Shown here one piece after another: positions 1 through 53,029 of a stretch of DNA of 64,000 nucleotides. The stretch's first letter is position 1. The number at the start of each line of letters is the position of its first letter. The notes beneath the pieces are model-generated. The model worked only from the letters and a program-made list of their open reading frames with translations. It searched no databases and was not told where the DNA came from. Source of the DNA: Ianthella basta (lineage: Eukaryota; Porifera; Demospongiae; Verongiida; Ianthellidae); the NCBI GenBank assembly GCA_964019415.1, contig OZ025873.1, positions 2,474,982 through 2,538,981 of the forward strand. Direction: 5' to 3'. The position numbers and the translations under genes are program-made.

Positions 1-632
1 ATACACATCGGCAGTCATGCATGTATAATCACGTCATGCCAGCTGTTTGTGCTAGTGAAGTTGACAAGATATGGAAGATGAAGAATAATTAATCAACTCA
101 TGTATTACACAAATAAACCATACATCTAACTTTCAGATCACTTCAAGAAGTTCTCTATGTACCTAGCCTTGTACCCAGTCCCTACTTCCTTTCTGACTCC
201 TTGAAAGTCAGAATGGAAACAGGGGCTGGATATGGTATGAAGCTAATATCAAAGTTATGATGTGACATGGACTACTTCTGGATATGGTTAGATAATGACA
301 TCTCATTCTCTGGCCGTTCTGGAAATTATCTAACTGATCACAGAAAGTGGACATTCATCTTTATCATACGACCCCAGGACTATAGGACCTAAATATTTCA
401 AATGACTCTTACATCTCCCAGGTTCTGGAGATCAGCTCAAATATTCATAGCCCATGCATCTATGCAACCACGCTCTAGTAATGTGTATCTCTGATCAAAG
501 TTTCATTCCTTACATTTCATGTAACAAACAATGACTGTGTATATAGCTAGTGACTGAATTATGCAAGCACATGCACAGGGTCAGATGATGCTTGTGCAGG
601 TTGCTATATAATTAATTATTATGTATTCATGG
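1..632. repeat. C-to-A intergenic segment, left edge of the array
   Basis: No gene is seen here. The first 230 bases align by eye with the segments that follow the last exon of gene C in the other cassettes (about 15540-15770, 31020-31330 and 47510-47850), including the shared stretch around the words ccagctgtttgtg and acttcaagaa. This implies a further C gene just outside the left edge. The rest is 3' flank of A1. Confidence 0.7.
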
Positions 633-3600
633 TCACTTGTCACGTCCACGGAGATGTACATGTTGGGGTTGGTACATAGCATGGGAGCAGGCCTGGGTCT
701 GGCCAGACTGGGCATGGGGTGCATGGACCTGGCTGTACACATGTGCAACATAGGCAGGGTTCTCCATCATTGGGACTTCTTCAGCACCATTCACATAGTG
801 ACTCTCAGTTGGAGAGATAGATTCAAACCGGTTCCACCTTTCAGTTGTGGCATAGGCTGGATTCTGCATTATTCTGATGTCATCAGCAGGATTTCCATTC
901 TGAGTCCCAGTTGGAGAACCTCCAGACTGGAATTGGGACCCCATTTCAGAAGTGGTCATTGTATATGTTGGATTGGTGACAGCCCTGGAAGACAAAGGCT
1001 GCCTGTGTTCATCTGACTGCCATTGCTTGGGACCACCTGCACAATAATGAATAGAAGTAGACTAGTACATTAATACTAGGCATAGCTATGTGCACATAGC
1101 TATACACAGTACATGCATGTACACAAGATTTACATGGCAATCACACATTGCATGATGTATAGCTAGCTTGCTATTCAACGTAGGTACTACAATAAGATTT
1201 GATAATAGAATAATTATTATGAGTTGATGTAACATGTGTAGCTGTGTACACACATAGGCAGCAACCTGTTCAATCAATATATATGATATTATACACAGAC
1301 GTAGCTACATGAATAGCCACATACGATACACACACACACACACATATACGTCATAGCCAATTAAAATGGCCTTTGACCTCTGCAGAGATACTTCATAACA
1401 GAATGGGAGTGATACAATTGGTTTGTGCAGATAGTATAGGACTAAGACTTGCATGGAACATAGACAGGCAAGTTACGCAAAATAGACATTATATACAAGT
1501 TAACATAGACAAGTTAAGTTGCAGGAATTAGCAAGGTTGGGTTGAGGATGTGAGTGGTGCAGGGCTTTAATCAATGGGTGGGGACAAGCAAAGTGATCTA
1601 GCTTGCATGGCTTTATAGATGTATAGGGCAGTTTCTTGTACTAGGGCGGGGTGGGGGGTGCGCATCAGGAATGTAAGTTTTTCTTTAGGGGTCAGGTGGG
1701 GGAAACTATGATTTAGGGTGGTTGCTCGTTGTATGAGTGGGAATCTGAGGTCACAATTAATAATAGGAGCCATTGAATAGGATGTGAATTTCATCTTCGA
1801 TCTCTTGATTGTTACAGATTTCACATTGGTGTCCTTCAACCGGTTTGGGGAGGTTAGGGTCACAGTGACAGCCACTTTCAATGTGGAGCTTGTGGTCTGA
1901 TAGTTGAAATTTATTTAATGCACTGCAGGTCCTAGGGTTGGTGATCCGAGTTAGATAAGGCTCACACACTTTGACGTCATGTTTGATCAACCTGTATATA
2001 TGCTCTTAACCTGCTCCCTCCCAACAGGGTTGCCCCTTGGGCGCAGCTTAGGTTGGACTGCAGAGATTGGATGTGTTGATCATGAAGGTGTGTGAGTACT
2101 TCAGTTTTGTCTGGCTGGGTCAAGTTGGGGTTAAATCTGAGGTGTACAAGCTGGTTCCTGATGAGGAAATCCCATGGTTTTACATATAGCTACCGCAGAG
2201 AGAATTCAAACTCTGTGCCCCCCTTCCCCCACAGTTACACTAAGTAACGATCCATGTTCTAGTTGTCATGTATCTACAGATGACACATTTGTCCCATATG
2301 ACTGTCACAACAGCTATAGCTGTATATATAGATGAACTCACTCAGTGCCTCTTTACTCAGTAACTTGGACTGCCTCCTCTTGTTGCGCACTCCAAGACCC
2401 ACGCCCAACAACACCACAAAAAGGATGAAGGCACTGAAGATGCACCCTCCAACCACTGATGAAGCCACAGTGAGAGGGGAGAATTGCTGTGAAGATGCCT
2501 CGCTACCCTCCATCAATGATCCTTCAGAGATAACACCAGTGTTAACACTGCCATTAGCTGCAGCTATTTGAGCATATATGGATGCATGGACCAAGGAAAG
2601 AAAGTATAATTGTAGTAGACTGTTGAGCTAAATTTGCATTTGTGTCTTTCTCTGTTGTATGGTAGCTACAAGCACAAAACTGCACTGTGTAGCCCATGCA
2701 CTGTCATTTCAGGGGTTTTTAGTCCCATCTAACATTTGCGCTCTGTATATCATGTGAGTAAAGTATTGGAAGGTAGATTTGCATGTGCTTCATTGTCGAT
2801 TGACGTCACCACACACAATGGAATGCAATGTTCCAAATACTTTACCCATGATTAAGTACAGAGCGCATTGCACAATCGGGACACGAAACACAAAAATGAC
2901 TGTATCAAAGTTGATCAGGACTCACACACTGCAAGACAGCCTGCAAACCTACAGAAGACATGACTGCATAGTTCTTACATTGAAAGGAGACACTGCCAAT
3001 AGCCAGTACTGTGTCACCCTGAAGCATCTCCACAGAACAGTTGTGCACAAATGAGGGCACCTCAAAGGTCACCTTCTCCTCAGTTGGGGCTACAGTCCTC
3101 AGCTCCTGTGACCTCTCTCCTGATGGATAGCACAGTCGGGTGACTGATATGTTGCTAGGATCCATTGCTGCATTAATCTGAAAATGGAAGCAAGCGACAC
3201 AATTTAGCAATAACTTTGTCAGGATGATATCCATTGTATAATTACCAGCGAGCAGTAATGGTGAAACATGAATGGGTTTGGGGAGGCTGCTTGGTGGTAG
3301 AGTCCATCAGGCCTATAGCTACTATATTTCTGTGTAAAGAATTATTGGAGGGTCGAGGGGGGGGGGCTTAAAGCCCCTAGTCCCCCGTTCCTCTATATTC
3401 TCGCCAGTGGTAAGGTAGACAGACATGTGCATTCAAACATGCACACATGCAGGCAGTGGACCCATTCAAATCTGATCACACCTGAGCCTAATAATGATGT
3501 AAAGGAATGTGCAAAATTAGCTGCCATTTATACAGATACAGATACATTATATAGGCTAGTAGCTATATGTAGATCCATGCATACACTGGTGCAATGCAAT

Positions 3601-6133
3601 GTGCTGTCTCAATCAGGGGCATAGACACAGCTGAACAGGGGGAGGGGGAGGGGAGGGGGGGCTTGTAGATTTGTGCAAGGGCAGTAAGCGAAAAAATCTT
3701 GTAACTACTTTAATTGTTTCTCTCTGAGTAGCTGGAGTCAGTGGTACTTTAATTTCTTGTTGATGGCATGCAGGAGTTCACTGAGTGAGCATTATCCAAC
3801 CTTCATCTGAGATTAATACAAGATAGGCTGATACTTGAAGTCTGGGGGGGGGGGGGGAAGTCCCCACTCCTTTGTGGCATGGATTGACGCCCTACAGCAA
3901 TTTAACTTCTATGTACTATTGGCAGGTACATGAGCATATTACAAAGCAAGCATGACCACCATACAGATGTGTTCCTGTGAAGCTGTATAAATTTAGTTAG
4001 CACATGCCAATTAAATCTATTGGTTTCTGACCACATACAAGTTCATTCCAAGAAGTTCAAGAAACTGAAAGTAAAGCTCAAATCCATATTGACCTGTATG
4101 AAAGGGACAAATACCCTTGACGTAGTTTCTACCCAGGCCATGCAGGTAGACCCTAGACCACACAAGTCCTTTCAATCGGTTGTTGGCTTCTGAATCCAAA
4201 TGCATAAACAGGATGTGTATATACTCAACTATTCTGTCTATTGTTATACTTTATGCGGTCAGCTGTAGGTTCAATCTATGAGCATCAGTTCACACTTTCG
4301 TTATAATAGCCCCAGTTTCTTTAATCTATTTAGCTCCATTAGAATTTATAGATTCATCTCCTTATTTCTATATATACTATGGTTGTTTGTTTGTGCAGTG
4401 CTGCATTTGACCATGTGGTGTCCTAGTACTGATTGATACAGTGCACTCTAATAATGAATTGAACAGAATTGAATGAATTGAGTTATTGAATATGCAGTGC
4501 GGAGGTCAACGCCCCCACCACCACCCCACCCCACTTCTGCCCCCATTCCCCACCTGCATATGTACCCACTCCTTTGGACTATACATTAGGCCACTCTGAC
4601 CTACCTTCCACTGCACATCCACAGACCATGACCCATTCCCTTCACTCCACTGTGCTGTGATGGACATGTTCACTGCAGAGAGCATGCAATGGAATACCCA
4701 ACAGCAGTGCATGTCACATTAGTATATATTGCATGAGATGGATAAGATGCATACACGGTTAATTAACAAACTATTCTGCATGCCATGCATGCATCACGTA
4801 TTAAACTCTTTAACACAATTTGCTATTGTACCACATGCATAATTATGTAGCAGCCAAGAGACAATTTTGATGTGGGTCTCCATATATACGTGTATATTTT
4901 ATGCACAGATGGATTTTATGCAGAAAACTAACATGCACTTGTTATGAATATCATGATGGCTAAGCTGCATACTGCACACATAGTGTTTGTATTACATGTT
5001 TGCCCATTATGCTCACCCAAAGGTGTAAGTGTTGAAGGAAAACAATCTGTGGGAGGAGAATGTGTAGAGTTATAGCATATGAGCTGTGTTCTATATACAG
5101 TGCAGCAATCACTCCTGGCATGCTCCGCCCAGATTGGTGTATGTACGTACTATGATGCCATGCACTCATGCCAGTGATGCTGACATCAGGGTACTGCTGG
5201 GGATGTTGGGGTAGGAAGGCATTCAGTGCTGGCATTTTGAGATCGTATGGAGTATGGAATGATTCAATTAATGTACTTTACGATCATGGAGGAGCTGGAA
5301 TAGCCACTGCACACGGCAGTATTGACACATGATCGTTAAAGAACTTAGCATTGTATTTTCTGCAGTTAGCTAGCTATTGTCTTCTCACCCTGCTAAAAGA
5401 CATGCAACTATGCAGGTTTCAAACCCAGATTTTACAGTGGCCATGTGAATGGGGGGAGGGGGATGGGGCATCAAGTTAGTCAGACCATGCATTCTGGCCC
5501 AGCTCAACTCACCCGTGATCACAAGCTCCTCACTGACAATTGTTCCTTCATCACGGTGCTGAACACAACGGTACCTTGTCCCCATGTGTTCGGCCACATT
5601 CCTAATGGTGACCGTCAGCATTACAGCATTGTTGGGCAGAGGGGCCAGTGACACGTCATAGCTGTCACTGTGATGTAGGTGTGACACAGTACGTTCTACT
5701 GGTTGCTTAAGAGTAGGGCTCAGAACAGTGACCCTCATTTGAGGGCTGACTTGACTCGCTGTGCACGTGAACACTAAAGGTCCCTGACAAGGCTGTGGGG
5801 CGGACGTCAAGGCAACTGCAGCGGAGGAAAGGAGGGATGAAGTATTTTACTTCCGTACGAATTTGTATGCACATGCAGCAAAGACTCGATCTGTGAATTA
5901 AAACACAATCTGTTACGATCTATGGTGAAAAGTACGCAGTGACAACTGTAATCATTTAGCTAGCTACATAGGTGCATTAGCTACAGACAGAGTAGATAAC
6001 AACAGTGCGGGAGAAGTGTTACAGTGCTTGGGGCTTCTCGAGCCGCACGCTGCGGCTCACTGTCGCTTTCCGCGCCCGACAGCACGGCCATCACGCTGAG
6101 TAGAAAGCACAGGAATACCGTGTGCACGCGCAT
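633..6133 (-). CDS. A1: Ig/FN3-like single-pass receptor with tyrosine-rich tail
   Basis: Predicted surface receptor, about 432 residues, seven exons read right to left: 6061-6133 (signal peptide MRVHTVFLCFLLSVMAVLSG), 5513-5815 (Ig-like; cysteines in FTC and YRC but no obvious core Trp), 5017-5046 (hinge mini-exon), 4605-4672 and 2979-3177 (two halves of an FN3-like domain; QW in the first, NCSVEM in the second), 2342-2563 (transmembrane helix, then KRRQS stop-transfer) and 633-1036 (tail). All junctions are GT-AG with consistent phase. The tail has NPTY, NPAY, HYVNG and NPAYV motifs. A net +7 indel near 690-730, relative to A2-A4, shifts the frame, so the conserved C-terminal DHEYI is replaced by HLRGRDK. 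The hinge exon uses a GTGAGC donor because the GTATGG donor of the other copies is mutated. Ligand and function unknown. Confidence 0.75.
1330..1346. repeat. short (AC)n run
   Basis: Short AC dinucleotide run in the last intron of A1. Confidence 0.8.
1567..2250 (-). mobile_element. Relic of a non-LTR retrotransposon 3' region
   Basis: Inside the last intron of A1 the minus strand encodes a fragment with the words LSDHKLHIESG, then CEICNN, then EIEDEIHILFN. This is the cysteine-containing stretch found near the C-terminus of many animal LINE-type reverse-transcriptase proteins (general form CxFCN...VEDExHFL..C). Two overlapping frames carry parts of it, so it is frameshifted and dead. It is absent from the short last intron of A2. 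Assignment to a specific LINE clade is not possible by eye. Confidence 0.55.
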
Positions 6134-6614: not shown

Positions 6615-6841
6615 AAAATGCACAATTGTGCAATCAGGACATGAAACTACTACACCATTGTGGGAAAGTGTTTCCAACAAAGTGGCCATCCAGCACCATT
6701 GTGCCTATCTTTCCAATTTAATTATAAGATAATTCAATCGATCAGTGCAATGTATTTGAATATACATGCATCACTTGTACAACACACCTCATAATGCGTC
6801 AGCACAACTCCCTCTAGGACCATGTCAGCTCTGTTGTGTAC

Positions 6842-8681
<1,840 letters not shown>

Positions 8682-10271
8682 GACTTCGCAGGAACTTGAA
8701 GCTATAGAGAGCATGCGGGGGAGCAAGAGCAGAATCGTACAGCACCCCACTTGTACAGGTAGCCAGGAATTCATGATTCCATAAAAGGTTTCCGACACAA
8801 ACTACTTCACGTTACACGAATAGCTAGGACTTCAAGTGTTCTCCCACTGTACACAACATACCATCAGGCTAAGCTGTGTCCAGGGTAGCTATGTACTTAT
8901 GTATTCTGTAAATAGATCTTGTAGGATTCATAGCAAAGTCTTGTCTTTGTGTGTATGAAATGCTTTTCTTCATCTATCAGAAATGATGTGAACAACAGTG
9001 TGAATACTGGTGTCAGTGTAAATGTCACACTAAAATATTGGTGTGGCTGATCACACCCTTGCAATTGGTGTGACCACTGGTTGGCAAGACAGTCACACCA
9101 TATTTTAACAGTGATGATTGCAGTACAATAATACTACACAATACACAATGCACAATATACTACACACATACTACACACACATATAATACACACATATTTT
9201 AACAGTGATGATATAATACACAATACACAATACACAATACTAATATATCATGCCAAAGATTATCAATGACCTTGTCACCGGTGATATCCGCTGCATAATT
9301 ACTGGCAAGGCAGGCAGGCTCTTGTATTCACACATGCACACATACAGTGGACCCAATTAAATCTGATCACATGCACCTGTGCCTACTATACATGATGGTA
9401 CCTCTGAAAGTGGTTGCTCATTGTAGAGTTACAAGGGGCAAAGGCATATCAAGACGGCCGCCTAACACAAGGTTGTCATTTTCGCAGCTGAAATCATGAG
9501 GGAAACGATGTACATTTGAATGAAACCTGTCTTCTATAGTGCAACAGCAAAAAAAGGCTAAAAGACTATAGCTTCTTCTCTTCAGTTTCATAGATACTAT
9601 TATTATGAAAGAGGTTTCATGAAACCCATGGAAGCCCCTTCCCTGTGCCCCTGTTGTAACGCTGGGCTTTAGGCACTGACAGCTAGTCGATAAAGCAACA
9701 TAAGGGTGTGAACTGTATCCCCAGTCACGTACACGCGTGCTATTTCCTCCAACTGCATGTGACTGGATTGTAGCGAGTGTACATTGCATAGCTACCAATG
9801 ATTTGCACATTTTACTATTCACCAAACCATGGGGTCAACAATAAGAACACATGGAACAAGTCACATTACACAGATCAAACTCGAGCATGTCCCTCTATGC
9901 ATGGGGCTTATGGTCACAGCAGCCACAAGATTTGCCAAAGTGGATTTTAGAGAGGACTTGACGCTCTCAACACAATGGGACACCCCCAAACTCCTACAGG
10001 GCACTGAATAGAGGCATCTCTCAGATGTTGCAGCATCATTATCACAACACACAGTATAAAATGTTGTGGTGCATGGGACAATGCTATTTGTACAGGTGGG
10101 TGCATATACTACTCTTGTAATAATGTAGAATGTAATAATGTACAGAGTATCCAAAAACGGGTTGAAACACGACACACAATAGTGAAAGGTTACAGTGAAC
10201 ATTACCAAAAGAGTGCTAAAGCACAAGTACATGGATATGAATTCACTGAAATAGTGAACTGAATGACTGAT
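8682..10271. other. Region between L and B1: fragments of other cassette parts
   Basis: No intact gene. 9001-9100 repeats ggtgtg/cacacc words in both orientations, suggestive of a small foldback element. 9121-9240 is low-complexity acaatacaca. 9270-9430 matches an A intron (separate entry). 9430-9830 has a ggtttcatgaaacc palindrome and no recognisable protein. From about 9829 to 10020 the sequence matches the stretch next to the T relics in cassettes 2 and 3 (about 21680-21920). Confidence 0.5.
9270..9430. repeat. Displaced fragment of an A-gene intron
   Basis: This stretch (gataatatcc-like start, then ggcaaggcaggcaggc, cagtggaccca, gatcacatgcacctgtgcctacta, ggtacctctg) matches A2 intron sequence at about 18105-18260, and less closely A1 at 3220-3500. 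No A exon accompanies it. Confidence 0.65.
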
Positions 10272-12787
10272 TTAGGCCACCACCACTCCTTTCTCGCTCT
10301 GTTCGTAGGTGGGTGGCGGAGTCACCTTCAAGAATAGGTATGGGGCAACATGAAGAAAGTGACCATATACTGCAAATGCACACACTAGTTGTTGTTCTAC
10401 CAACCAGTACCACTGCATGGCTGTCACTAATGCTCTTGTCTACGTACTATCACAATCCTCCTTGGTGGTGCCTTACAATAAAAATAGCACTATCTACTTA
10501 TGTAACATGTTATAATCCTATTCAGCAGCTGCTCATCCTTTGGGTCACTCGTGTGCAATTGTTCTTGTACAACAGCTAGTACACGATGAAACAGGTAATG
10601 CAGCAATTTGCCTTCATGCTCAGGGCATGCTTATAAGCAGGAGCATGCAGCGGTGCACACGCCCACTTTTTTGATGTCCTCCACTTGGTAGGATGTGGAC
10701 AGTCTCAAGTATCCGTTGCCCTCCTCCGTAGAGCGGGGCTCAGTCTTGGTAACAGCTACTGCACACACAAGAGTACAAGAGAGATAGAAACATGCAGGTA
10801 AACCAAGCTGCATTGACTACTATAGTGCAGAGCCATCCCAGTAAACAGTGGTGTGAAGGACCATGGAAGGCGTGGTATTAGGCAGCACAGTGGGATGGAT
10901 GTTGAGCACTGGGAATGTGTCCGAACAGTAGATGAAGGCCTTAGAGTGAATTACGATGTGTAAACTACAACATGTCCCAACACACAAGCACTTGATTATC
11001 CTTAATATCAGGTTTTATGCATGCACACTGTGTGCACGACAATATTCCTATAAAGCATGTCAACCACCCTCACCACTCTTCCTCCTCTTCTTCTGCCGCT
11101 TGCAGCACACACAGATCACAACACTGATCAGCAGCACAGTCAGTAGTAGGATAATAGAAGTAATGAGTAGCTGCCCAAAGCCAAAAATCCCACAGCTAAT
11201 TACTTCTTCACCTGTAGAGCAACGTCATTGAGAGGCACATTAAAGGAAGAAAGCACTCCCTAAACATTCAAGTTTAAGATGTTAATCCCACAAGACTGGC
11301 ACAGTTAGTAACTACGTAGTGTCCTATTTATACACTCTAGAATTCTACATCTACATTTGGTGAACATTGTCACAACAACTAACAATCTACACAAACAGAA
11401 CTGTCACTGACTTTGAACAGAAGTGGTTCCCATAGCAATGGTGACTCCCTCCCTGATTGCCTTTACGGTTACATTGCAGTTCTTCAAGTATGACCTCTTC
11501 AGCTTGAAACATGTCTCCCTGGTGGCCACATCCAAATTGTTGCGACTGTCCTCCCAGGTGTGTGTGCTGTTTCCACAACTCAAAATTGCGTTGAATGAAT
11601 CAATGTTCATTGGGGTGTCAATCTGCAAGGGGGCAGGGTGGGGGGGTGGGGTAGGATGGTGGGATATACGCAGTTATGCATTGCAGCTTTGTATACTGTC
11701 TTTAGATCTGTATGCACACTCCCACACATTGGACAGAAGTCATAATGGGGAGTTTTCACCAGACACCAGCCAGCCAATTCAATTTTACACTACAATGTTA
11801 TTAGTGTGTTGTAACTGACTAGGGGAAGGTTACTGTGGTTAACTGGTATGCTAGTAAAAATGTGACTGCAATGTGTGCTATTGCACAATCATGTGACATG
11901 ATGTTCCCACACGCCATAGACACAGTGTCTCTACACACAAGTTGACTCACGTTCCAATTCACGTTGACCTTCATACCACGCCTGGTCCTCTTCATCAAAG
12001 AGCTCACACTCATAGGCTCTGTGTGTGTCGGGGGGGGGGGGGGGGGGGGGAGAAGGAAAGGGAAGGAGGGATCTGTCATATTCATGATTGAAGATTACAT
12101 CAGCCAATTACCATGCCCATGCAGTCTCCCTTCTCCTCTCCTCCCATAACATGGTCTTAGCCATGAAATATATGGATTAACGACACTCACTGGGGACTAC
12201 CAAGTGGAAGGTGTCACTGACAGCACTCTCGTCACTGTCAAAGTACTGGACACAGGTGTATGAGGTCATGTTGTGATCGGTGACCTCCTTGATGGTCACA
12301 GATGCCGAGGTCCCGCTTAAGATACTAACATTGTAGGCGCCACTGGACACCAAACGGGCAAATGTGTTGGCAACGGGATAGATGTCTGTAGGGCGCTGCA
12401 CCAAAACACGCATCTGCGGCCCCAGTGTAGTGGTGACGCAGATCAGTATCATAGGGCCGCATGCTGGTACTTCGGGTGACGGTGAGCGGGAGATGGACAC
12501 TGCGTATAAACAGTGGAAACAATGACGGCATCAGTAAACGTGTCATCACACAAAAGTCAGCCAAACAGAGATCAATCAATCTGAGGACCACGTAGTCAAC
12601 TTCTGTATCGTACTGATAATTAACTACGGATATGTATCTTACTGGCCCGTATCAGTAGCTACTAGTACGAGATCTAGCCCGCCCATTCTAACCAAACACT
12701 GCTACCTTTGGTGGCGTCGCCCAGTGCTCCCAGGGAGGCAATGAAGAGAGCCGAAACAGTGATCTTGGTGACCCAGTCCATGGCCAT
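10272..12787 (-). CDS. B1: Ig/FN3-like receptor with short YxxL/PPxY tail
   Basis: Predicted single-pass receptor in seven exons: 12706-12787 (signal peptide, MAMDWVTKITVSALFIASLG), 12191-12499 (Ig-like; LICVTT and YTCVQY cysteines), 11951-12018 and 11412-11622 (FN3-like halves), 11074-11211 (transmembrane helix, then CCKQQ and a basic run), 10667-10758 (juxtamembrane tail with EEGNGYLRL) and 10272-10325 (PPPTYEQSEKG and stop). Exon phases and the 68-nt first FN3 half equal those of A, so A and B are paralogues with different tails. The last exon is inferred: it has a weak AAG acceptor but is 54 nt in all three B copies. The acceptor of exon 3 follows a run of about 20 C (minus strand). The start codon is 160 bp from that of divergent C1. 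Confidence 0.72.
12030..12051. repeat. poly-G/poly-C run next to a B1 splice acceptor
   Basis: About 20 consecutive G on the plus strand. On the B1 sense strand this is a C run that acts as the pyrimidine tract ahead of the exon at 11951-12018. Confidence 0.9.
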
Positions 12788-12946
12788 GGCGTGAGGTTAA
12801 CTCTTCGCTGTTTCCTACGACTGTTGTAGACGAAATTAGTACAGCATTCACCCCACCCAGCATGCACCATATATGGAATCGCTTGCAATATCCGTATTTT
12901 AAGAAGCGGACGTGCGTGTGTAGGAGGCAGCTGTACGGTGACCACG
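12788..12946. promoter_or_regulatory. Candidate bidirectional promoter B1/C1
   Basis: Only 159 bp separate the start codons of B1 (minus) and C1 (plus), so 5'UTRs and core promoters of both must lie here or overlap the opposite transcript. No TATA box is convincing. The same head-to-head order is kept in cassettes 2 and 3, where transposons have widened the gap. Confidence 0.55.
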
Positions 12947-25066: not shown

Positions 25067-25088
25067 GAGTAGAGCCGCCCCCTTCCGG

Positions 25089-25112: not shown

Positions 25113-25130
25113 CGAGTGCCCTTGATATTA

Positions 25131-28052: not shown

Positions 28053-28087
<35 letters not shown>

Positions 28088-40032: not shown

Positions 40033-40094
<62 letters not shown>

Positions 40095-40803
40095 GTGTTG
40101 GAGCGAGGGAAGGAGGGAACACATTGAAGATAATGTTACCATGCTCAGCCTCTCTTCTCCTCTTCCTCCGCACATCTACCTAACACAGTCTTAACCAGTT
40201 GACTGATTAGCGACACTCACTGGGGACTACCAAGTGGAAGGTGTCACTGACAGCACTCTCGTCACCATCAAAGTACTGGACACAGGTGTATGAGGTCATG
40301 TTGTGATCGGTGACCTCCTTGATGGTCACAGACGCTGAAGTCCCACTTAAGATACTAACATTGTAGGCGCCACTGGACACCAAACGGGCAAATGTGTTGG
40401 CAACTGGATAGATGTCTGTAGGGCGCTGCACCAAAACACGCATCTGCGGCCCCAGTGTAGTGGTGACGCAGATCAGTATCATAGGGCCGCATGCTGGTAC
40501 TTCGGGTGACGGTGAGCGGGAGATGGACACTGCACAAGAGCAAGATAGTGACGACACCAGTTAATATGAAATCACACAAAAGACGTCACGTAATCATCTG
40601 AGGACGACGTAGTCAAACTTTGTACGACTACAAACAGTTGAGCATATCCTAATGACCCGAATCTGTACCAGTTCAAGATCTAGTCCGTCCATCCTCCCAC
40701 CTCTAAAGATATTCTTACCTTTGGTGGCGCTGTCTAGTGCTCCCGCAGGCGACACAATGAAGACAACTATAACAGTAATCTGGGCGATCCAGACCGTGGC
40801 CAT
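38118..40803 (-). CDS. B3: Ig/FN3-like receptor with short YxxL/PPxY tail
   Basis: About 315 residues. Exons: 40719-40803 (signal peptide, MATVWIAQITVIVVFIVSPA), 40221-40529 (Ig-like), 39967-40034 and 38945-39155 (FN3-like halves), 38583-38717 (transmembrane and basic stop-transfer), 38302-38387 (tail with EEGNGYIRLNESY) and 38118-38171 (PPPTYEQSEKG). It is nearly the same as B2, including the introns. The acceptor of exon 39967-40034 is preceded by about 60 bp of pure CA on the sense strand in place of a normal pyrimidine tract. The last exon differs only in its final residues (GVAVV against GVVDV in B2 and GVVVA in B1). Confidence 0.75.
40036..40099. repeat. (GT)n microsatellite at a B3 splice acceptor
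   Basis: About 28 GT units start directly after the exon boundary at 40034. The same place has a shorter GT run in B2 and a poly-G run in B1. Confidence 0.93.
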
Positions 40804-41189: not shown

Positions 41190-44100
41190 ATGCTGGCCGG
41201 GTCTGGATCTATTCTTCTTTTTGTTGCGCTCGCCCTTGCAAATTCGTTCCTCCCCGGGGCAAGCCAAAGTAATTGCACCCGGTCGTCCCTCTACGTCCAG
41301 TGCAGTAACGTCTCCAGTGTCGGAAACTGCCGCTACAGTGAGCCACCGTGCACCTAGTACCACCTAGTCGTTCTTGTTAGTTGCGCCACTAGACTGACTC
41401 TGCGCACGAGCAGACAGTGTCTGTGATTGTCATTCGTGCATGCATGGTAGGCGTCATCTCGTTTTCTGTCTTCCCGCACGTGCACAGGAACCTGCAGCGA
41501 CACAGTGTGGAACGTTACTGCGTCCTTCCGTTCCTGTCAAGACCCTTGGCCAGCGCAGAGCGCTGGTGCTGTAAGCATCGAAACCTACACGAATGTGACG
41601 TGCCCCTGTCCTGCAGGGGCTGGGGATATAACCTATAAAATACACCTGCCTAGTGAATCGGAACCCTTCGACTATAAAAACCTCAATGAAACGCCCAATC
41701 CAGACTTCTTGAACGCCCATCGATGTGCCAACGAATTCAACAAAAGCGTAGACGACCAAATATACCCCTACTGCATCAGGTTTACAAATATACCAAAGGC
41801 AAGAGAGGTAAATGGTACCGAACTGATGGTGGAGGTAACCCCCGATCCCTTTTCGGCGAATTCCAGCACATCTTGTATCATCATTGTCGTTCAAGGTACG
41901 AATCCATAATGCTATGCTACCCTACAAGCACCTTGATTGTCATGTATTTGATCGAATTAATGATTATGTATGTGTGTGTATGTGTCATTGATCTGCAGTT
42001 CCAATGACTACACCGACTCCAACCCCATCCCCAACTCCATCAATTCCAAGTGGTGGTAAGTTGATAGCTACGTATGCAAAACATGTGTAACTGGTGCGCT
42101 GCATTTCACAAGGCGGACACGGGCCGAACAGTAACACGGAACACAATTATTGACTCCCTCCAAATCTGAGGTCAAAAGCACTGCGCATGCACATACAAAA
42201 ACCAATTATGACATTATAACACCAATAAGGTACAGCAACACAAGGTAAGCACAAGATAAGGGTACAAGAGTATGCACACACTGTTCATACACATGTAACA
42301 GTTCTACACATGCATTGTAACCTTGTGTGCATCAGCCAGGAGACTTTAAAGTGAACACAGAATAAGCTTCCGTCAAGTGACTGAACGTAGCATCAGAACA
42401 AGATTGTCACTGGACATTTTGGTCGCAAAGCCTACTGCTGATGAAGGCCTTCATGGCCAGAACATCCAGTGACAACCTTGTTCTGATGTTGTGTCCAGTC
42501 GCTTGGCAGAAGCATATTTCGTGTTCATCAAAGTATGTTACATACATTTGTTTACCTTTCACTGGGTTAGTAGTGTAAAGGGAAGTAAAAAGTTTTCCCT
42601 AAAAACAAGTGGAGATGTAGGGTAGTCAGGTGTCGCGTGACCCATCCTCACGGAAGGGTCAGGTTAAGTCTAATACATTGACTTGTCCACGCGGAATGCA
42701 ATTATGCGTTGTGGAATGTAATTATTGCGCAACATTATGCCTCGTTTGTGGTCGCAAGTAGGTGCGACGGCTCGCGACACTTGATCTTTCATAATAACCG
42801 TCAAAAGAGTGACAGCAAAGACTATCGATGTCCCTTCGACCGGCAACACCAGGACGAACACTGTCGGCGGGCACGCGTAGCACAGGTTCTTGTCAAAGCT
42901 GGTCGCAAAACAGCGAAAACATCTCTCACAGAAATGATGCCAGACACAACCTGAAGTTGCTCTGACTTCATGGTAGATAACCAAGGCGCTGGGTGGCTTC
43001 CGTCGCAGCGTATAACACTCTCTGGTCCGTCTCTGGTCTGGTGTGATTTGCGAACACGCGAGCGATTAATATTTCACACCTTTTCTGCAATCTGATTGGG
43101 CACGCAACCATTGTGGCGTGCTGCACAAGTCAATGTATTAGACTTAACCTGACCCTTCCGCGAGGAGGGGTCACGCGACGCCTGACTAGATGTAGGGATG
43201 GTGTGCATGTGCATGGAAAAATCAACTGGAGGGAAAACTTTAGAAACAAGAAGGGGTACCATACCATGCTCAACCACTGGGTCAGCATTCCCCTAATTCA
43301 ACCTTCCTGGCTTGACAACAACCTAGGACAACATTCTCTGGGTTTATCTTTCAAAAATGCATTGAATACCTTGTCACTATCCCTACATCGATCTGGAAAC
43401 ATCTGTGGTTGAATAGGCATGTGCACATACTAGCTATAGGAGAGAGTTTGGATAAGCATGTACATGCAATGACGAGTTGAGTATAGCACGAATTGTGTAT
43501 AGGCAAGATCATTATGCATGTTGCCAGTGCTGTGGGTCTTGGAGTTTAGGAACACCAGCTTAGGAATGGCCTGAAGGTATTAAAGTGCCACTGACATGCA
43601 AAATTTTTATTTCATTAAAAGAAAGTGTATTACTAGTGAAGAAGATCTGCGGGTCTTTTAAGTGCATATGGTCCCTACATTGGGGAGAAATTGAAGGTCA
43701 AAGTTTCAAAAATGTGTTATTGTTTAATCGTTGACGTCATCTAAAGTTATATTCCGGGAAATTTCTGTGACGTCACAAGGGGAACGGAAGTGGATAGTTG
43801 CTAGATGGCTGAAGGTAGCGACGTCCTTGAAGTTAGCCTCTCCTGCGACGATTCGTCGTATGACGAACGTAATCCGAGTGGTAACGACAGCGAAGACGAT
43901 ATTTACAGCGGAAGTGATGGCGGGGAAGACAGCGACGGCAGTACAGACGCGCTGGGAATGGAGCCTTACCAGTTCGAACCCGTTGGGAACATCGGCGGCT
44001 CAGAGGACAAACGTAGCTCGGAAGAAGATGAGGAAGAGGCCGAATGGAGACTTAACAACACCAACTGGTGCGCAAATGAAGTCAGAGTATCTTTCGCGTG

Positions 44101-46357
44101 TTTCTTAAGTGCCTTGAATGCCATGTTGGCTACATAGCTACGTGCACTTGCGTAGGTGTGAGTGCGGGAATTGCGAAGTGATGCCTACAGCAGAGGAGAG
44201 TATATGCTGTAGGGAGATGATACAGATTGAGAACAAATTGCAGGAGTCCGATGTTAGTAATGTAAGCTGCATCACAGAGCATGAAGGCCTCCAGTCAGTG
44301 TGCCTGGACCGATGGGTGTTACAGACAGCAGCATCTCAGACTCGCCAGGAGCATGGAAGGCATGCTATAAGTAGACCTGCACATAAATTAGTGCATAAAG
44401 GTAATATAGCTATGTTTCATTTTAGATTCAGTAACATCCTTCTTTCCTACCTAGAACCCTTCACCACATGGCTTATCGTCAACTGGCAAGGTGGTGCTGG
44501 GGATATCTTGGCCGGGAAGTACGTGTTGTGTTACCCTCATGTGCAGTTAGTAGAATACGGTCAACTTTTCCTTCTGACAGCTATGTTGGTTTTAAAGTTT
44601 AATTGCAATGCTACTCTCTTTTTAGCTACAATATTATTATTGTCTACTGCAAACTGAAGCGAGTGCGGTGTTCTTTTATATGGCATCCGCTTTAGTAGGT
44701 CGTTTGAACTGGCTGCACAGTGATGGTGGATGGTTGTCTGCTATCTGGTCTTGTGGCAGATTGACCTCATCCTCTTCCCATGACTCATCACTTTGGTTGG
44801 GAGTTGAAGTAACTAGTGGAATGAGGTTACACTGGACACCCACATCCACACCAGATACAGGGAGGCAAACATTGACTCCTGCAATGGAAGCACACATGCA
44901 CCTTTGTGGACTTGCTGCATGCATGTGGGGGCATGAGCATGAGTATGTTATACTAATACCCTTATTACGTGTTGAGGGCAAAACTCTTGCTTGTACGTGT
45001 TTTGAACTGGTATTGGCAACTGCCTGGCAAGCCACACTAGAGGTGCTGGCATGCTGATGTAGATCACGATCATTGCCTTTCTATCTCCTCCAGAGTCTTT
45101 CCGATGAAATGATATATAGACAAGTTCTTACTGCGACTCATATATTAATTATATATATAACTGTATACCCTATAAGTGTATATGTACATAGCCCACCTGA
45201 GCCCTCTCTCTCTTTATGGTAGCTGATCGGCTGTGTGAGGCACATGCACATGTGGTCAAGCCAACATGTGATTGGGCTGGGGGATAGTGGATAGATCCAG
45301 CTGCCCATTCCATTGATTTTGCTCTTACATCAGCTGCCTTCGGGAAGAATGATGGAACTGCAGAATCCTTCAGCTTTCTCCGTTTTGTAGGTAGCCCCAA
45401 TTCTGCTGTAAGGACAGTGCTGGGCTCAAAACAGTCCTTAGTGAAGTGCAAGCTGCACAAGACCGAATGATCACTTGGTCCTGTCCAGTCCACTCTGGTT
45501 TTGGCCACTTCCTTCAACCATTGTGCCTGTCTCTCAGGATTGTTGGGAAATTTGAACAAGCTGAACTCTCCATCACTTCCCCTATCGCATCCAGCAGCTA
45601 CACATCGCTTAGGCATGGTGCTGCTGACGATTTCAGAACGATTCTACGTCGAGTAGCGAACGAACACGGCGGAATTTCGCTTTCTATCACATATTACGCT
45701 ACGATAGCGTTCCCCTTGTGACGTTATCAACAAAATGGCCGATTTTTGACATCCTGTTCACCGGAAGTTGCGTATAATCGCGGATTTTCTCCCACTTGCG
45801 CGTAATTATACCAATTTAGACTATCACCAATGGTCCTAACTCATCAGACTGCATCCATTAATAAAATAAAAATTTTGCATGTCAGTGGCACTTTAAGTTC
45901 CAATACGGGATTCCATAACAAAGGATAGACATAGTGTGCATGCCAAGTAGTCTTGTGTAAGCAACTGCTGTTTGCTTTGACTTTGCCTCCACAAAAGATG
46001 AACTAGGGACACTAGGCCTCCAGTTTAGTAGCCAAAGACTGAAGTCCAGACTGTTCACAAAATTTGAGGAAACTGTATGTCTGAGCAGAGGGCCAACTTC
46101 AAACATGGGTAACAGGAGCAGGGAGCGTTTTGAGCAGTAAGCACAGCATTGGGTCCATTAAGACAGGACATTTCACTCACATAGGTCTTCATCAGCCAGA
46201 ACTGGTGAGAAGCTAAAGCGGGTGAGAAGATGTTGTTTATACATAAGTGGTTGAGGTATGATGTCATAGTGATGGGGTGTGATGTCATGTGGAACTAGTA
46301 TTTCGAGTTAAACACGCCCCACTCGAACTACTTGCCCAATTGTTATTGTAAGGTAAC

Positions 46358-46437
<80 letters not shown>

Positions 46438-47334
46438 AACACGTACACACACACACATGTACACACATGCACAAACACACACACAAATGTGTGCACGCAC
46501 ACACACATGCAAGCACAAATGCACACACATGCAATAATCGCAGTCTGTTTGCTCTGTCAGTGGGTGCTGCAGAGTGCAAGCCAGCCTAAATGCTTTCTGT
46601 TGTATAGTACATAATTAAACAAAACACACACACCTTTGTGTCAACTTGCCCTTATCATTCTGAACTTTAACTGTACAATAATTATAATCTAGCAACAATC
46701 ACCTCAAGCATGGTTTATATGGGCTGCGAAGTGAGTGGTTGCCAGCGGGCGTCGTAGCTCAGTGGCTAGAGCACTGGCAGCTAAAGCCTGATGTCCTGGG
46801 TTCAATTCCCGGCGGCGCCACTTTCTTTGCAGCCCAAAGTTGTTTCAAAGGTCTACGGACAGTAACGACATCGATTGTGACTTGTTTTGACAGGTTATCT
46901 TAATTAAGGTCTTCGGACCGTAGCTCCTTCCATCGGCTTTGTCTTCAGACGTAGCTTCTTCCATTGGGCCTTGCTGTGTTTACGCTTATGATCCTTTCCT
47001 TCTCGGCTTTAACTGTACAATAACAGTTGGGGTTACATATTGGTTTATATTGTAAACCAACATTACAGCCAGCTGCTCTGTATATAATTATGACCTGCCG
47101 AAGAAGGATGTCTAGATCATCATTCACTATGTGCATAGTGATACCAGTTACTGTTTATATAATTATTGATGCATGGCACAAGGCTCGATCAGCATGAGCT
47201 CACTTATTTTACACTGTCCATGCATACACACATTCCTCTGTACATTCACTGCAGGTTCTCCAGCCATCATGGTTACTAACTGGACTTTGGCTGTGTTGAT
47301 GCCTATGCTTGGCTACATACTAGTTAGATTGTAA
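41190..47334 (+). CDS. C3: probable GPI-anchored surface protein
   Basis: About 230 residues. Exons: 41190-41337 (signal peptide, ILLFVALALANSFL; YVQCSNVS), 41488-41895 (136-codon domain; CSDTVWNVTASFRSC, YTNVTCPCPAG, NAHRCANEF, YPYCIRF, STSCIIIVVQ), 41999-42055 (stalk VPMTTPTPTPSPTPSIPSG) and 47255-47334 (GSPAIMVTN, WTLAVLMPMLGYILVRL, stop). All junctions are GT-AG and in phase. It has the longest stalk of the three copies. The last intron is 5.2 kb and has taken up at least three transposons (42365, 42623, 43584) and a SINE (46682). Family of the main domain not recognised. Confidence 0.72.
42365..42513. mobile_element. Foldback element in the C3 intron
   Basis: gcttccgtcaagtgactg pairs imperfectly with cagtcgcttggcagaagc, and inner arms catcagaacaag.ttgtcactgg / ccagtgacaaccttgttctgatg extend the stem. 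Structure of a small MITE. Confidence 0.7.
42623..43188. mobile_element. 566-bp non-autonomous transposon with long inverted ends and 9-bp target duplication (MULE-like)
   Basis: Ends tagtcaggtgtcgcgtgacc and the complement of ggtcacgcgacgcctgacta, extending to about 70-80 bp, are flanked by gatgtaggg at 42614-42622 and 43189-43197. Long inverted ends with a 9-bp duplication fit Mutator-like elements. No transposase is visible inside. Confidence 0.8.
43805..44602 (+). CDS. Transposon gene with P2X7-C-terminal-like zinc-binding domain
   Basis: Exons 43805-44067 (acidic N-terminus, many Ser/Asp/Glu, ending NNTNW) and 44156-44400. Splicing TG|gtgcgc to gtag|G restores WCECGNCEVMPTAEE, then SICCRE, SCITEHEGLQ and VCLDRWVLQTA: the cysteine pattern of the cytoplasmic domain of vertebrate P2X7 that also occurs alone in many invertebrate proteins. 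A third piece at about 44455-44602 encodes AYRQLARWCWGYLGREVRVV and LPSCAVSRIR, the expected continuation, but the phase does not match the best donor, so there is either another junction or a frameshift. Part of the TTAA element, not of the receptor cassette. Confidence 0.6.
45329..45616 (-). CDS. THAP-domain DNA-binding protein of the transposon (first exon)
   Basis: Starts MPKRCVAAGCDRGSDGEFSL and shows the C2CH zinc module of THAP domains: CVAAGC, then CSLHF, with FKFPNNPERQAQW between, and a terminal AVPSFFP box. A GTAAGA donor at the end (after KAAD) suggests more exons; a minus-strand open stretch at 44676-45035 (with SIAGVNVCLPVSG and DESWEEDE) may be the rest. THAP domains bind DNA and in such elements probably bind the inverted ends. 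Confidence 0.7.
46363..46434. repeat. (AC)n microsatellite, about 36 units
   Basis: Pure AC run in the last intron of C3, followed by an interrupted AC-rich stretch to about 46530. Confidence 0.95.
46682..47006 (+). mobile_element. SINE-like insertion with 17-bp target duplication
   Basis: The direct repeat ctttaactgtacaataa lies at 46665-46681 and 47007-47023; the site is empty in cassette 2 (about 30505-30525). The 325-bp insert contains a tRNA-like structure at 46748-46820 with A and B box equivalents. A long perfect target duplication is typical of LINE-mediated insertion. No poly-A tail is evident. Confidence 0.8.
46748..46820 (+). tRNA. tRNA-like sequence in the SINE (probably not a working tRNA)
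   Basis: A 73-nt cloverleaf can be drawn: 7-bp acceptor stem (ggcgtcg / cggcgcc, one G-T), D arm gctc...gagc, anticodon arm ctggc / gcctg with one T-T mismatch, T arm ctggg ttcaatt cccgg. With this folding position 33 is G rather than T and the anticodon reads CTA (amber). The mismatch, G33 and the SINE context argue for a tRNA-derived promoter, not a functional tRNA. Confidence 0.5.
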
Positions 47335-48492: not shown

Positions 48493-51400
48493 TCATATGT
48501 ACTCATGATCACTTGTTGAGTCCATGGTGTTGTACACATTGGGGTGGCTGTAGCTAGCCATGGGAGCAGGCCTGGGCCTGGTCAGACTGTGGTGGATCTC
48601 GGTATATGAATGTGTAACATAGGCAGGGTTCTCCATCATTGGGACTTCTTCAGCACCATTCACATAGTGACTCTCAGTTGGAGAGATAGATTCAAAACGG
48701 TTCCACCTTTCAGTTGTGGCATAGGCTGGATTCTGCATCATTCTGATGTCATCAGCAGGATTTTCATTCTGAGTCTCAGTTGGAGAACCACCAGACTGGA
48801 ATTTGGACCTAAATTCAGAAGTGGATGGATTGGTGACAGCACTGGAAGACAAAGGCTGCCTGTGTTCATCTGGCTGCCATTGCTTGGAATCACCTGCACA
48901 TGCAATAATGAGAAGGTATACCTACAGTATGTACAATACAATGTTAGGGACATAGCTACATGCACCCACAGCTTAATTATTACTAGTCGAATGCAAGGCA
49001 TTGTGGGGGCGAGCATGAAGTTTATTTTGTTTTTGTCCCGAATTAATGGTCTTTATATCAAGAACATACATGGACGCATGTGTACAATTGCAATCAGGGT
49101 ATTAGTTGTAATACAATAGCCACTCGTGTATATGTGATTGTATGCAAGATGCGATGATGTATGTGAGCATGAACGTGCATGCATATGCATGCACATGCAT
49201 GAATGCAATTAAGGTGTTTGTAGTCAGATGTGTACAGTGAAGGTGACTGCATGGATGATATATAGCTAGGTGCATGGAAGAAAGCAGGAGACAGCATTCC
49301 TGCGGTCATGGAGTGAGGAGGGTCCAGATGTTTGCTCTGTAATGGTACAGCCCCTTGAGCCATAGGGTACCCCTGTTCTTGCCACTCCTCTACATACTTG
49401 TGGGGTGCTTGGACATTTGCCTGGGTGATGATTTCCCAGAATGTAGCTATATATAGGTGAGGTGTGTGTCTGCCACGCCGACGACGACATGCCACCTGAA
49501 CCTTGCAAACAGGTTAGGTGACTGATGCCCTAGTTGTGCATGGCACAGCCATGCCATCCAGCCAAATCGTAAGATAAAGAAACAGTCAAAAAGCTAGGCT
49601 TCAGTGGCTACCAGTAATGCGAACAACAGGCTAACATCAGGCCAGGTCAACGGTACGTCTGCATGCTCGCTGGTCAGTCTGACAGCCACAGGCGCCAATC
49701 CACCTGAACCCTAGTCTTGTACCCAGACCGCTTTCGTTGGCGCCTCCATTTTTATATCCTGACCTCGTAGGGAGGCGCATTAATATGCTGCAGTCTCCCA
49801 GTGCGTCCAAAATCATTATGCTAAAACTTTCCCCCCGTGGCCCAAATCAGCACAGACAAAATAAGCCCTGCCCAGAGTGTTGAATCAAGCTACCTACCGA
49901 TTTGTATATAGGGGGACCCTCCCTTCTCCCCACACCACTCTGTGTGACCTTCCCTCCTCCCCCACACATTAGTCCCATATCTCAAGAGCTAGATAGTTAC
50001 AAATGAACTCACTCAGTGCCTCCTCACTCCCCGATCTGGACTGCCTCCTCTTATAGCACACTCCAAGCCCCACACCCAACAACACCACAAAAAGAATGAG
50101 GGCACTGAAGATGCACCCTCCTACCACTGATGAAGCCACAATGATAGGGGAGAATTGCTGTGAAGACGCCTCGCTGCCCTCCATCAGTGATCCTTCAGAG
50201 ATAACACCAGTGTTAACACTGCCATTAGCTGCAGCTATTTGAGCAAAATTATGTGCAAGTGTGGGAGAATTAAGAAGAGAAAATGACTGACTGTCGAGCT
50301 GAATTTGCATTCATGTCTTTCTCTGTTGTACTTCTAGCTATAAGCTCACACAACTAGCACTGCATGGCTCATGTGTGGTCAGTTCAGGGTTGCTATAGTC
50401 CCAACTGATATTTCTGCTCTGTACGCAGTCATGTGAACAAATTATTGGAATGGCATGTATATAGTTCGATCATCAATTGATTCCGCCACACACAAGAGAA
50501 TGCACTGTACCACATACTATACTCACATGATCAAGCACAGAGCCATTGGGCAATCAGGACAAGAAATTAAATCGTGAAGCACTTGCATCAAAGTTGATCA
50601 GGCTCACAGCATGCATGCAAGGCAGCTTTATATATACAAGCTACATGTTTGTGCATAGCCAAGAGTACATGTACATGAGTACACTTGGTGTGGCTCTTAC
50701 ATTGAAAGGAGACACTGCCAATAGCCAGTACTGTGTCGCCCTGAAGCATCTCCACAGAACAGTTGCGCACAAATGAGGGAACAATATAGGTAATCTTCTC
50801 CTCAGTTGGGGCTACAGTCCTCAGCTCCTGTGACCCCTCTCCTGATGGGTAGCACAGTCGGGTGACTGATATGTTGTTAGGGACAATTGCTGCATTGATC
50901 TAACAATGGAAGCAAATACGTAGCATGATTTTAATAAGTATGTTTATACAGACTTTGTGAGTGGAGCAAGCCAAAACATCATTAAAACTAATTTGATCTT
51001 CCTTGAGTAGCTGCATGGAGTCAATAGCACTTTTTAGCACTGTCAGGCTCAAAATTTGGAGGGGAGCTCAAAGCCAAGTGGCATGGATGCCCTACAGCTA
51101 CTGCCATTATAGGCAGGTGCAAGGCACACACCACCACAGTGTAGATGGGTCCCTGTGAAGCCGTGTTTAATTCAATTAGCACATGCAATTTATGTCTATT
51201 GGTTTCCTGACTGCATACAGTTCCTACTAAGAATGGAATTTCCTGTATGAAAGGGACAAGTACCCTTGACCTGGTCAGTACCCAGGCCAGACCCTTGACC
51301 ACACAAGGCCCTAGCCGTTTTTGGCTTCTGAATCCCAATGTAGACAGGATGTGTATATAATATGTACAGGTATGGGGTCACCCCCCCATCTCACATCTAG

Positions 51401-53029
51401 CCCCTGTTTCTTCACTGACTTATTTATTATTGTGCATCTGGCGCACGAGACTCCCCCACCCTCCCCCACCCCACCTGCACTTCCTCCTTTTGGCACACTG
51501 GCCACTCTGACCTACCTTCCACTGCACATCCACAGACCATGACCCATTCCCCTCACTCCACTGTGCTGTGATGGACATGTTCACTGCAGAGAGCAATGGA
51601 ATACCCAACAGCAGTGCATGTCACATCAGTGCTGCATTAGACTGACACCTGTAGCTAGCTGACTAAATGTAACTGTTCTGTGTGTTGTAAACTCCTTAAC
51701 ATATACAAACTATTATGTATATATTGACTGTTAGTGTAGGACCAAGTTTAATATCCATGGGCCTCTATACACGTTTATCCACAGATTGCACATATTTCCT
51801 CCTTGTACAAATAATATGCAATCAATCGCTATCATGATGCCAATATGTTATGCACTGCACTAGTCCTGCATGAATAGCCAGACCACTTTCCAGAAAGTGG
51901 TCTGGCTAAGTGAGACTACACTGCACACAAACTTCATATTACTTATTTTGCCCATACCATGCTCATCCAAAGGTTCCAATGTTGAAGAGCAGTCTGTGGG
52001 CAGAGAATTAAGAGTAATTGTAGGCTCATAGTGATGTGTTCTACACTACAGCAACCACTCATGGCATGCTCCCCATTCATATGGCCACCTAGCTCAATCA
52101 CAGATTCACCTGGACTGGTGCGTCCACCATGCGTGATTGGATGTGTACATGGCATGAGAGTTAACGCCAGAGTTGTAGGGGCAGCTGCAGGTGGCAATTA
52201 GGGCCAATGTTTTGGGATTGTATGACCCAAGCATGAAATGATTTAGTGTACTTTACGTCATGGAGGAAATGGGACAGCAAAGAATTTGCTGCTAATGGCA
52301 ATTATGACACATGAAGTTTATGTCACTTAGCGTTGTACTGCTGTGTAGCAAGCTAGCTAATGCCTTCTTGCCCTGCTAAACAACCATGCAGGTTTCAAAC
52401 CAAGATTTTACAGTACGAGGCCGTGTGAATGGGGGGAGGGGGGCATCAAGTCAGTCAGACCATGCATTCTGGCCCAGCTTAACTCACTCATGATCACAAG
52501 CTCCTCGCTGGCAATTGTTCCTTCATCACGGTGCTGAACACAACGGTACCTTGTCCCCACGTGTTCGCTTACATTCCTAATGGTGACTGTCAGCATTACA
52601 GCATTGTTGGGCAGGCGGGCCAGTGACTCGTCATAGCTGTCACTGTGATGTAGGTTTGACACAGTACGTTCTACTGGATGCTCGACAGTAGGGCTCTGAA
52701 CAGTGACCCTCATTTGAGGGCTGACTTGACTCGCTGTGCACGTGAACACTAAAGGTCCCTGACAAGGTTGTGGGGCGGACGTCAAGGTAACTGCAGCGGA
52801 GGAAAGGAGGAAATAAGTATTTATCTGTACAGCAAGGTAAATGTGAAAAGTGCGCAACGACAACTTAAATCTTCCAGCTCTGCGTTTAGCTATAGACAGT
52901 GCATGGAGAAGTGTTACAGTGCTTGCAGGGCTGCTCGGGCCGTTGCTGCGGCTCACTGTCGTTATCTGCAACGGACAGCACCGCCATCGCGCTGAGCAAA
53001 AGGCACAAGCATATCGTGTTCACGCGCAT
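48493..53029 (-). CDS. A4: Ig/FN3-like single-pass receptor, lacks first NPTY
   Basis: About 433 residues. Exons: 52957-53029 (signal peptide as A2, but ...LSVA), 52488-52790 (Ig-like; differs from the other copies at several sites, for example VSNLHH, DESLARL, RNVSEH), 51958-51993 (hinge mini-exon), 51516-51583 and 50701-50899 (FN3-like halves), 50013-50234 (transmembrane) and 48493-48893 (tail). The tail reads TNPSTSEF where the other copies have TNPTYT[IM]TTSE, so the first NPTY tyrosine is deleted. NPAYAT, HYVNG, NPAYV, HSYTEI, NVYNTM and DHEYI remain. It lies next to the complete T gene rather than to a relic. Confidence 0.8.
51874..51908. repeat. Perfect hairpin in A4 intron (copy in A3 at about 35201-35236)
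   Basis: agccagaccactttc pairs with gaaagtggtctggct. It was inherited by both A3 and A4 and is not seen in A1 or A2. Confidence 0.8.

Follow-up and report, generated by a model that had tools for sequence, protein, structure and literature searches.

A stretch of 64,000 nucleotides from the sponge Ianthella basta (hereafter the window) was found to carry a tandem array of three genes, A, B and C, which adjoins an array of receptor kinases of the EGFR family. Judged from the sequence, this is a real receptor array, restricted to one locus and linked to EGFR signalling by a tail segment that A shares with the kinases. The explanation put forward here, tentatively and some way short of an established one, is a cluster for contact recognition between sponge cells, in which A, lacking a kinase, would act as a co-receptor feeding into EGFR signalling and C would be a fast-diverging ligand. 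To our knowledge, the receptors of sponge graft recognition are unsettled. Sponges discriminate self from non-self grafts with high specificity, and a polymorphic genetic system was inferred in a study of graft transcriptomes (PMC5450542).

Organisation of the A, B and C array

Alignment of the window against itself (self-matches of at least 250 bases were kept, and the match of 54.6-58 kb to itself was omitted) revealed a repeat unit of about 15-17 kb, present three times with a partial fourth copy; the units begin near 568, 16.26 k, 31.5 k and 48.17 k. Matched blocks of at least 250 bases were 68-96% alike, far above chance, and unit-specific insertions lay between them. Gene models derived from conserved splice borders gave four A, three B and three C genes in the window, arranged in each unit as A (minus), B (minus) and C (plus). 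B and C are head-to-head, with gaps of 159, 2142 and 386 bp between their start codons in units 1, 2 and 3. This arrangement had been proposed in a preliminary description of the window and is upheld by the gene models and the self-alignment. One extra B and one extra C lie directly upstream, so that the array extends past the window and four B and four C genes are known in total. The models are as follows (A1, A3, A4, B1 and B3 were placed by splice borders and frame):

633..6133, minus strand: A1, exons 6133-6061, 5815-5513, 5046-4996, 4672-4605, 3177-2979, 2563-2342, 1036-633
10272..12787, minus strand: B1, exons 12787-12706, 12499-12191, 12018-11951, 11622-11412, 11211-11074, 10758-10667, 10325-10272
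12788..12946, no strand: start-codon interval of B1 and C1, 159 bp, a candidate shared promoter with a putative function
12947..15386, plus strand: C1, exons 12947-13103, 13256-13646 (frameshift near 13555), 13722-13763, 15295-15386
16320..20402, minus strand: A2, exons 20402-20330 (signal), 20129-19827 (Ig-like), 19739-19686, 19387-19320 and 17959-17761 (second domain), 17368-17147 (transmembrane), 16732-16320 (tail)
22185..24834, minus strand: B2, exons 24834-24750 (signal), 24559-24251 (Ig-like), 24106-24039 and 23239-23029 (second domain), 22801-22667 (transmembrane), 22454-22369 and 22238-22185 (tail)
26977..30842, plus strand: C2, exons 26977-27124 (signal), 27273-27668 (diverging ectodomain), 27772-27810 (linker), 30763-30842 (hydrophobic, GPI-like end)
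31824..36386, minus strand: A3, exons 36386-36314, 36113-35811, 35317-35267, 34894-34827, 34210-34012, 33544-33323, 32209-31824
38118..40803, minus strand: B3, exons 40803-40719, 40529-40221, 40034-39967, 39155-38945, 38717-38583, 38387-38302, 38171-38118
41190..47334, plus strand: C3, exons 41190-41337, 41488-41895, 41999-42055, 47255-47334
48493..53029, minus strand: A4, exons 53029-52957, 52790-52488, 51993-51943, 51583-51516, 50899-50701, 50234-50013, 48893-48493

The seven exons of A encode a signal peptide, an immunoglobulin (Ig)-like domain, a short linker, a second domain (two exons), a transmembrane (TM) segment and a tail; the seven of B follow the plan signal, Ig-like domain, second domain (two exons), TM segment and tail (two exons), and the four of C the plan signal, ectodomain, linker and hydrophobic end. 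Every intron in the A and B models, four and three respectively, has GT/AG borders, and all seven frames reach a stop. Intact models were obtained for C2 and C3. Exon 2 of C1 is frameshifted, and a frame change near 715 in the last exon of A1 yields a tail without YNTM and the EYI end. Among the best candidates scored in the genome search, no relatives of A, B or C were found away from the locus, the other rows having E >=0.457.

It is scarcely credible that haplotypes of one locus were placed end to end by the assembly, an artefact that the preliminary description had named as grounds for dismissing the array. A 5,000-base stretch of N in the upstream array (C6:2438982-2443981; C6 is the contig holding the window) would fit such an error, but the window is free of N, its matched blocks differ by 4-32%, and single units bear insertions of their own, namely a THAP frame in an intron of C3, a 41-bp repeat in unit 2 and an EGFR fragment in unit 1. 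Moreover, the genome search recovered no copies of A, B or C on another contig among the best candidates scored.

The THAP domain frame (45170-45643, minus strand, E 3.2e-15) lies within the long last intron of C3 and is probably transposon-derived. An inverted repeat pair, 87% alike, was also seen at 25129-25441, between B2 and C2, and at 30074-30386, in the last intron of C2.

Receptor tails and the EGFR-family array

The sequences show A and B to be paralogues that cross the membrane once (28% over 211 amino acids, E 3e-17; 443 amino acids in A2 and 315 in B2) with ectodomains of about 230 amino acids, one Ig-like domain each and differing tails. The single Ig-like exon of each model was matched by Pfam Ig_3 in all seven A and B genes, in every case below the cut-off (best E 0.01), and comparison of folds, on a modest model, indicated a V/I-type fold with the B-F disulphide and the Y-x-C of strand F. 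The Ig part of the preliminary Ig/FN3 assignment is supported, weakly by sequence and also by this comparison. Its FN3 part is not supported, and the second domain is left unassigned: Pfam matched FN3 in the second domain of none of the seven, and the sole PDB row was Netrin receptor unc-5 (E 0.78). At E <=1, Pfam gave no family in A2, C2 or C3 and nine weak rows in B2, and no solved structure was significantly related to A or C by sequence.

The tails of A carry two or three NPxY motifs and YVN, with YNTM in A2-A4; the tail of A2 reads NPTY, NPTY, YVN, NPAY, YSQV, YNTM, EYI. The tail of B is short and has YIRL or YLRL together with PPTY (YIRL and PPTY in B2). Differing tyrosine-containing tails had been described earlier, and this was borne out, but their assignment to the type of the immunoreceptor tyrosine-based activation or inhibition motif (ITAM or ITIM) was not, as these patterns occurred in none of the seven A and B tails of the window. 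Signalling through ITIM or ITAM of the kind used by the cnidarian Alr receptors was ruled out on this basis.

Over about their last 57 residues, A2-A4 show homology to the tail exon of EGFR (YVN, NPAY, EYI-stop; E 2e-9). When the EGFR tail exon was searched against the genome (53-55% to the A tail), all 19 rows with E <=1 fell on C6, 16 of them in the EGFR array and three in A2, A3 and A4; the frameshifted A1 was not among them. L domains and a tyrosine kinase were not found in A, in which no Pfam family was detected (A2, E <=1), and only the tail end is common to A and EGFR. The simplest account of these sequences would be that an EGFR tail reached the kinase-less Ig receptor A by exon capture or by shared descent.

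The neighbouring kinases were read over 80 kb upstream of the window, their exon strings being joined by eye. They adjoin the array at C6:2353282-2463379 on the minus strand, which is that of A and B. By their sequences they belong to the EGFR family, with an ectodomain of L1, furin-like, L2 and domain IV, a TM segment and an ErbB-type tyrosine kinase (Pfam Recep_L, Furin-like, GF_recep_IV, PK_Tyr), for which the best PDB matches were EGFR and ErbB4. GF_recep_IV gave 11 rows in the genome, eight of them, spaced by 8 kb or more, within C6:2353282-2456644 (minus), another at a different place on C6 and the remaining two in a single frame of contig C21; counted by domain IV, the array holds at least eight copies. 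All four kinase pieces were found in four EGFR copies within the stretch read, and the copy at 2436-2445 kb, where the run of N lies, gave no L2 or domain IV match. Such an array beside a receptor cluster was unexpected, because a survey reports one EGFR in Amphimedon queenslandica and none in two cnidarians (PMC4914847).

The ratio of non-synonymous to synonymous divergence (dN/dS) was 0.56-1.14 for L1 (10 pairs) and 0.07-0.28 for the kinase core (six pairs). L1 evolves faster than the kinase core (p 0.007, calculated from two disjoint pairs, E2-E3 and E5-E6, out of these 10 and six). A B-type last exon was located 1.5-3.1 kb 5' of three of the six upstream L1 matches, and the EGFR and A/B/C arrays therefore have a common history. 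One further EGFR-like piece lies inside the window:

6780..8700, minus strand: EGFR-like ectodomain fragment with L1, furin-like and L2 (Recep_L_domain E 1.1e-20)

No match to domain IV, a TM segment or a kinase followed this fragment, which is possibly a pseudogene or a soluble receptor.

Divergence of C, constraint on B and flanking genes

Exon 2 of C, which encodes the ectodomain, differed between C2 and C3 at 68 of 396 sites (17%) as against 15 of 251 (6%) in two introns (p 1.3e-5), and exon 1 at 17 of 148 (p 0.04). The exon 2 differences comprised 58.5 non-synonymous and 12.5 synonymous changes, and dN/dS was 1.43 for this pair and 0.43-0.71 for the other five (C1 entered by its first 99 codons only). 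All eight cysteines of C2 exist in C3, and the last-exon regions are 96-97% alike. In both proteins a hydrophobic stretch stops two residues from the end, and this C-terminus resembles that of a glycosylphosphatidylinositol (GPI)-anchored protein, suggesting a putative anchor. The earlier choice of C as candidate ligand is supported to the extent that C is the most diverged member of the array; binding to a receptor is a predicted role.

The Ig exon of B showed the reverse, with dN/dS of 0-0.21 in six of six pairs and, between B2 and B3, no non-synonymous and four synonymous changes. Between units 1 and 2 it was 98.4% alike and four introns 64, 73, 75 and 91%, which indicates either constraint or exon conversion. 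Exon-wise gene conversion in A and B is possible. In five of six A pairs and five of six B pairs the Ig exon had diverged less at synonymous sites than the main second-domain exon, the order being reversed in A3-A4 and B2-B3; synonymous divergence was likewise low in the TM exon of B.

Ordinary tandem duplicates under relaxed constraint, with C copies decaying and no recognition role beyond EGFR modulation, could account for the frameshifts of A1 and C1, for the decayed t exons of units 1-3 (described below) and for the EGFR fragment at 6.8-8.7 kb. We consider this explanation unlikely, since loosened constraint alone does not make exons outdiverge introns, the Ig domain of B is strongly constrained, and C2 and C3 retain open frames, signal peptide, splice sites, C-terminal exon and eight cysteines despite 17% exon divergence.

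A stronger competitor, which we hold to be only somewhat improbable, is a cluster for innate immunity or symbiont sensing, in which microbes would drive the divergence of C and of EGFR L1 while A and B tune EGFR-type signalling, with no part in self/non-self recognition. Sponges house dense microbiota, and tandem expansion, diverging ectodomains and restriction to one locus fit immune receptors equally well. On the other hand, a GPI-like C that lies head-to-head with B, whose Ig domain is conserved, is no less compatible with a partner encoded by the host, and no microbial-binding domain was recognised by Pfam in A2, B2, C2 or C3, most of whose domains are unrecognised.

Several observations weigh against a recognition cluster with C as diverging ligand and A as EGFR-linked co-receptor. 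Between C2 and C3 the excess of dN over dS does not reach significance alone (p 0.14), and their synonymous sites diverge more than the introns (p 0.025), so that an old exon kept amid homogenised introns is possible. The divergence also extends beyond the coding sequence, as identity is just 70% over the 120 bp that precede the start codon. C0 and C1 showed the reversed pattern (40 of 379 exon sites as against 54 of 138 and 36 of 69 in introns), and the predicted model of C exon 2 was of low confidence, with no clear fold in a check for Ig. The contrast of L1 with the kinase is not uniform, because dN/dS of the exon ending the EGFR kinase spanned 0.19-2.18, with just 0-5 synonymous changes. 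The tail shared by A and EGFR could, in addition, be left over from exon capture and have no common function. Taken together, the exon 2 sequences allow either diversifying selection or an old exon within homogenised flanks, neither of which is proved.

The t exon corresponds to the last exon of a TSP1-like gene that follows the array. Broken copies lie between A and B in units 1-3, and all 11 rows in the genome were on C6:

6438..6614, minus strand: t exon remnant (last exon of the TSP1-like gene), unit 1
20851..21683, minus strand: decayed t exon between A2 and B2, with stops and frame changes
36836..37683, minus strand: decayed t exon between A3 and B3
53360..58000, minus strand: TSP1-like gene, 5' end approximate (TSP1_CFP_C E 0.0065, below the cut-off)

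The last exon of the TSP1-like gene (54196-53360) is open over 279 amino acids, is preceded by a hydrophobic stretch, contains NPF, NPAF and NPAW, and is an intact relative of the remnants. The t exon was ruled out as an alternative B tail, since the copies in units 2 and 3 are broken. A 16-bp minisatellite of about 93 copies (56264-57712) lies within the TSP1-like gene region. At about 62-63.9 kb a minus-strand frame has a DnaJ C-terminal domain (E 2.2e-7), resembles ERdj3/DNAJB11, and may mark the edge of the array.

On the mitochondrial contig (C96), atp9, a sponge trait among animals, is present, and COX1 reads TGA as Trp. On the assumption that this contig and C6 come from one animal, it points to a sponge and against a cnidarian or tunicate host. 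Its tRNA genes near COX1 lie on both strands; most demosponge mitochondrial genomes have a one-strand tRNA layout.

Proposed mechanism and known recognition systems

In the proposed mechanism, a tandem receptor-ligand cluster would have been expanded by segmental duplication beside the EGFR-family kinase array. On cell contact, the diverging C would serve as ligand of A and B or of the EGFR-type receptors, and A, drawn beside an EGFR, would be phosphorylated in trans by the neighbouring kinases, as kinase-impaired ErbB3 is by its partner. Phosphorylated A might then recruit adaptors of the Shc/PTB and Grb2 types, as EGFRs do. B would be a conserved partner or a brake, its PPxY motif calling a NEDD4-type ligase, which this motif is known to recruit. 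The output would be a contact decision, i.e. to accept or reject, to tell self from non-self, or to tell microbial from own. The likeness to EGFR and ErbB lies in the end of the A2-A4 tail, with YVN and NPAY common to the adjacent array. Like ErbB3, A would need a partner kinase, but it differs in having no L, furin or kinase domains.

A bolder proposal, and one we rate a little more doubtful than decay under relaxed constraint, is a supergene for self-recognition. In it an anchored, fast-evolving C and its receptors would be co-inherited and read out through EGFR kinases with a fast-evolving L1, A with its captured tail would be a switchable docking partner and B a conserved brake, and the locus would be an animal counterpart of the ligand/receptor-kinase loci of plant self-incompatibility.

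The design of the locus resembles the fuhc locus of Botryllus schlosseri, and membership of fuhc, s/v-Themis or Alr would go beyond the evidence. As described in one report, fuhc places the ligand fuhc-sec next to pairs of fester and fester co-receptor (PMC12065747). Common to both loci are ligand candidates with paired, related single-pass receptors in tandem, one diverging ligand candidate, and tyrosine tails that differ among receptors (PMC12065747). The Botryllus co-receptors (FcoR, 520-610 amino acids) are described there as having a V-type Ig, a sushi and two C2-type Ig domains with ITIM/hemITAM tails (PMC12065747), whereas A and B have one recognised Ig-like domain, no ITIM or ITAM and, in A, an EGFR-type end. 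No sushi domain was matched in A2 or B2 at E <=1 and ectodomains of about 230 amino acids fit two domains only, so that the FcoR-like set of sushi and C2-type Ig domains is absent. The pairs of fuhc vary in gene content between haplotypes, while A and B are paired as seen in one haplotype. The hosts also belong to different phyla, and segregation with fusion is reported for Botryllus (PMC12065747).

The preliminary description had read the locus as Alr-like. Its clustered invertebrate receptors and candidate ligand remain, and the likeness to Hydractinia Alr is in the clustering of single-pass Ig-superfamily genes with tyrosine tails (PMC11067881, PMC11999971, PMC12065747). The link to Alr itself is weak, and membership is not supported. 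In Hydractinia, the sharing of Alr alleles governs fusion. The ectodomains of Alr proteins are described in the same sources as highly polymorphic and built of V-set and I-set domains, and their tails as being of the ITAM/ITIM kind; in the present array a single Ig-like domain is recognised, the Ig domain of B is the conserved part, nearly invariant between copies, the tails are of another kind, that of A being EGFR-type, and the host is a sponge. EGFR orthologues are reported absent from cnidarians in the survey (PMC4914847). A cnidarian-type Alr complex or its homologue, with homophilic polymorphic Ig receptors and ITAM/ITIM-like tails, is thus very improbable.

Two further systems were compared. 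The s/v-Themis families of Ciona are unrelated to A, B and C, and sponge aggregation factors carry Calx-beta and Wreath domains, neither of which was found by Pfam in A2, C2 or C3 at E <=1 or among the nine weak rows of B2. Like the aggregation factors, which are candidate polymorphic cell-recognition genes of sponges (PMC5450542), the genes of the array may serve cell recognition, but A, B and C are small membrane proteins without aggregation-factor domains. Linked, multi-allelic gene pairs controlling self-recognition are the point of likeness to s/v-Themis (PMC7018956); the difference is that s/v-Themis acts in gametes (PMC7018956) and that the present locus was read as a single haplotype.

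Among the open-licence literature matches listed, there was no account in sponges of this trio, or of an Ig receptor that lacks a kinase and bears an EGFR tail. The locus is a promising place to study how sponge cells recognise their contacts, and it offers concrete candidates: a protein that diverges and is putatively anchored, Ig-like receptors in pairs, and a link by sequence from Ig receptors to EGFR signalling. If true, the capture of a receptor-kinase tail by such an Ig receptor would reveal a route by which immune-type receptors may acquire signalling tails.

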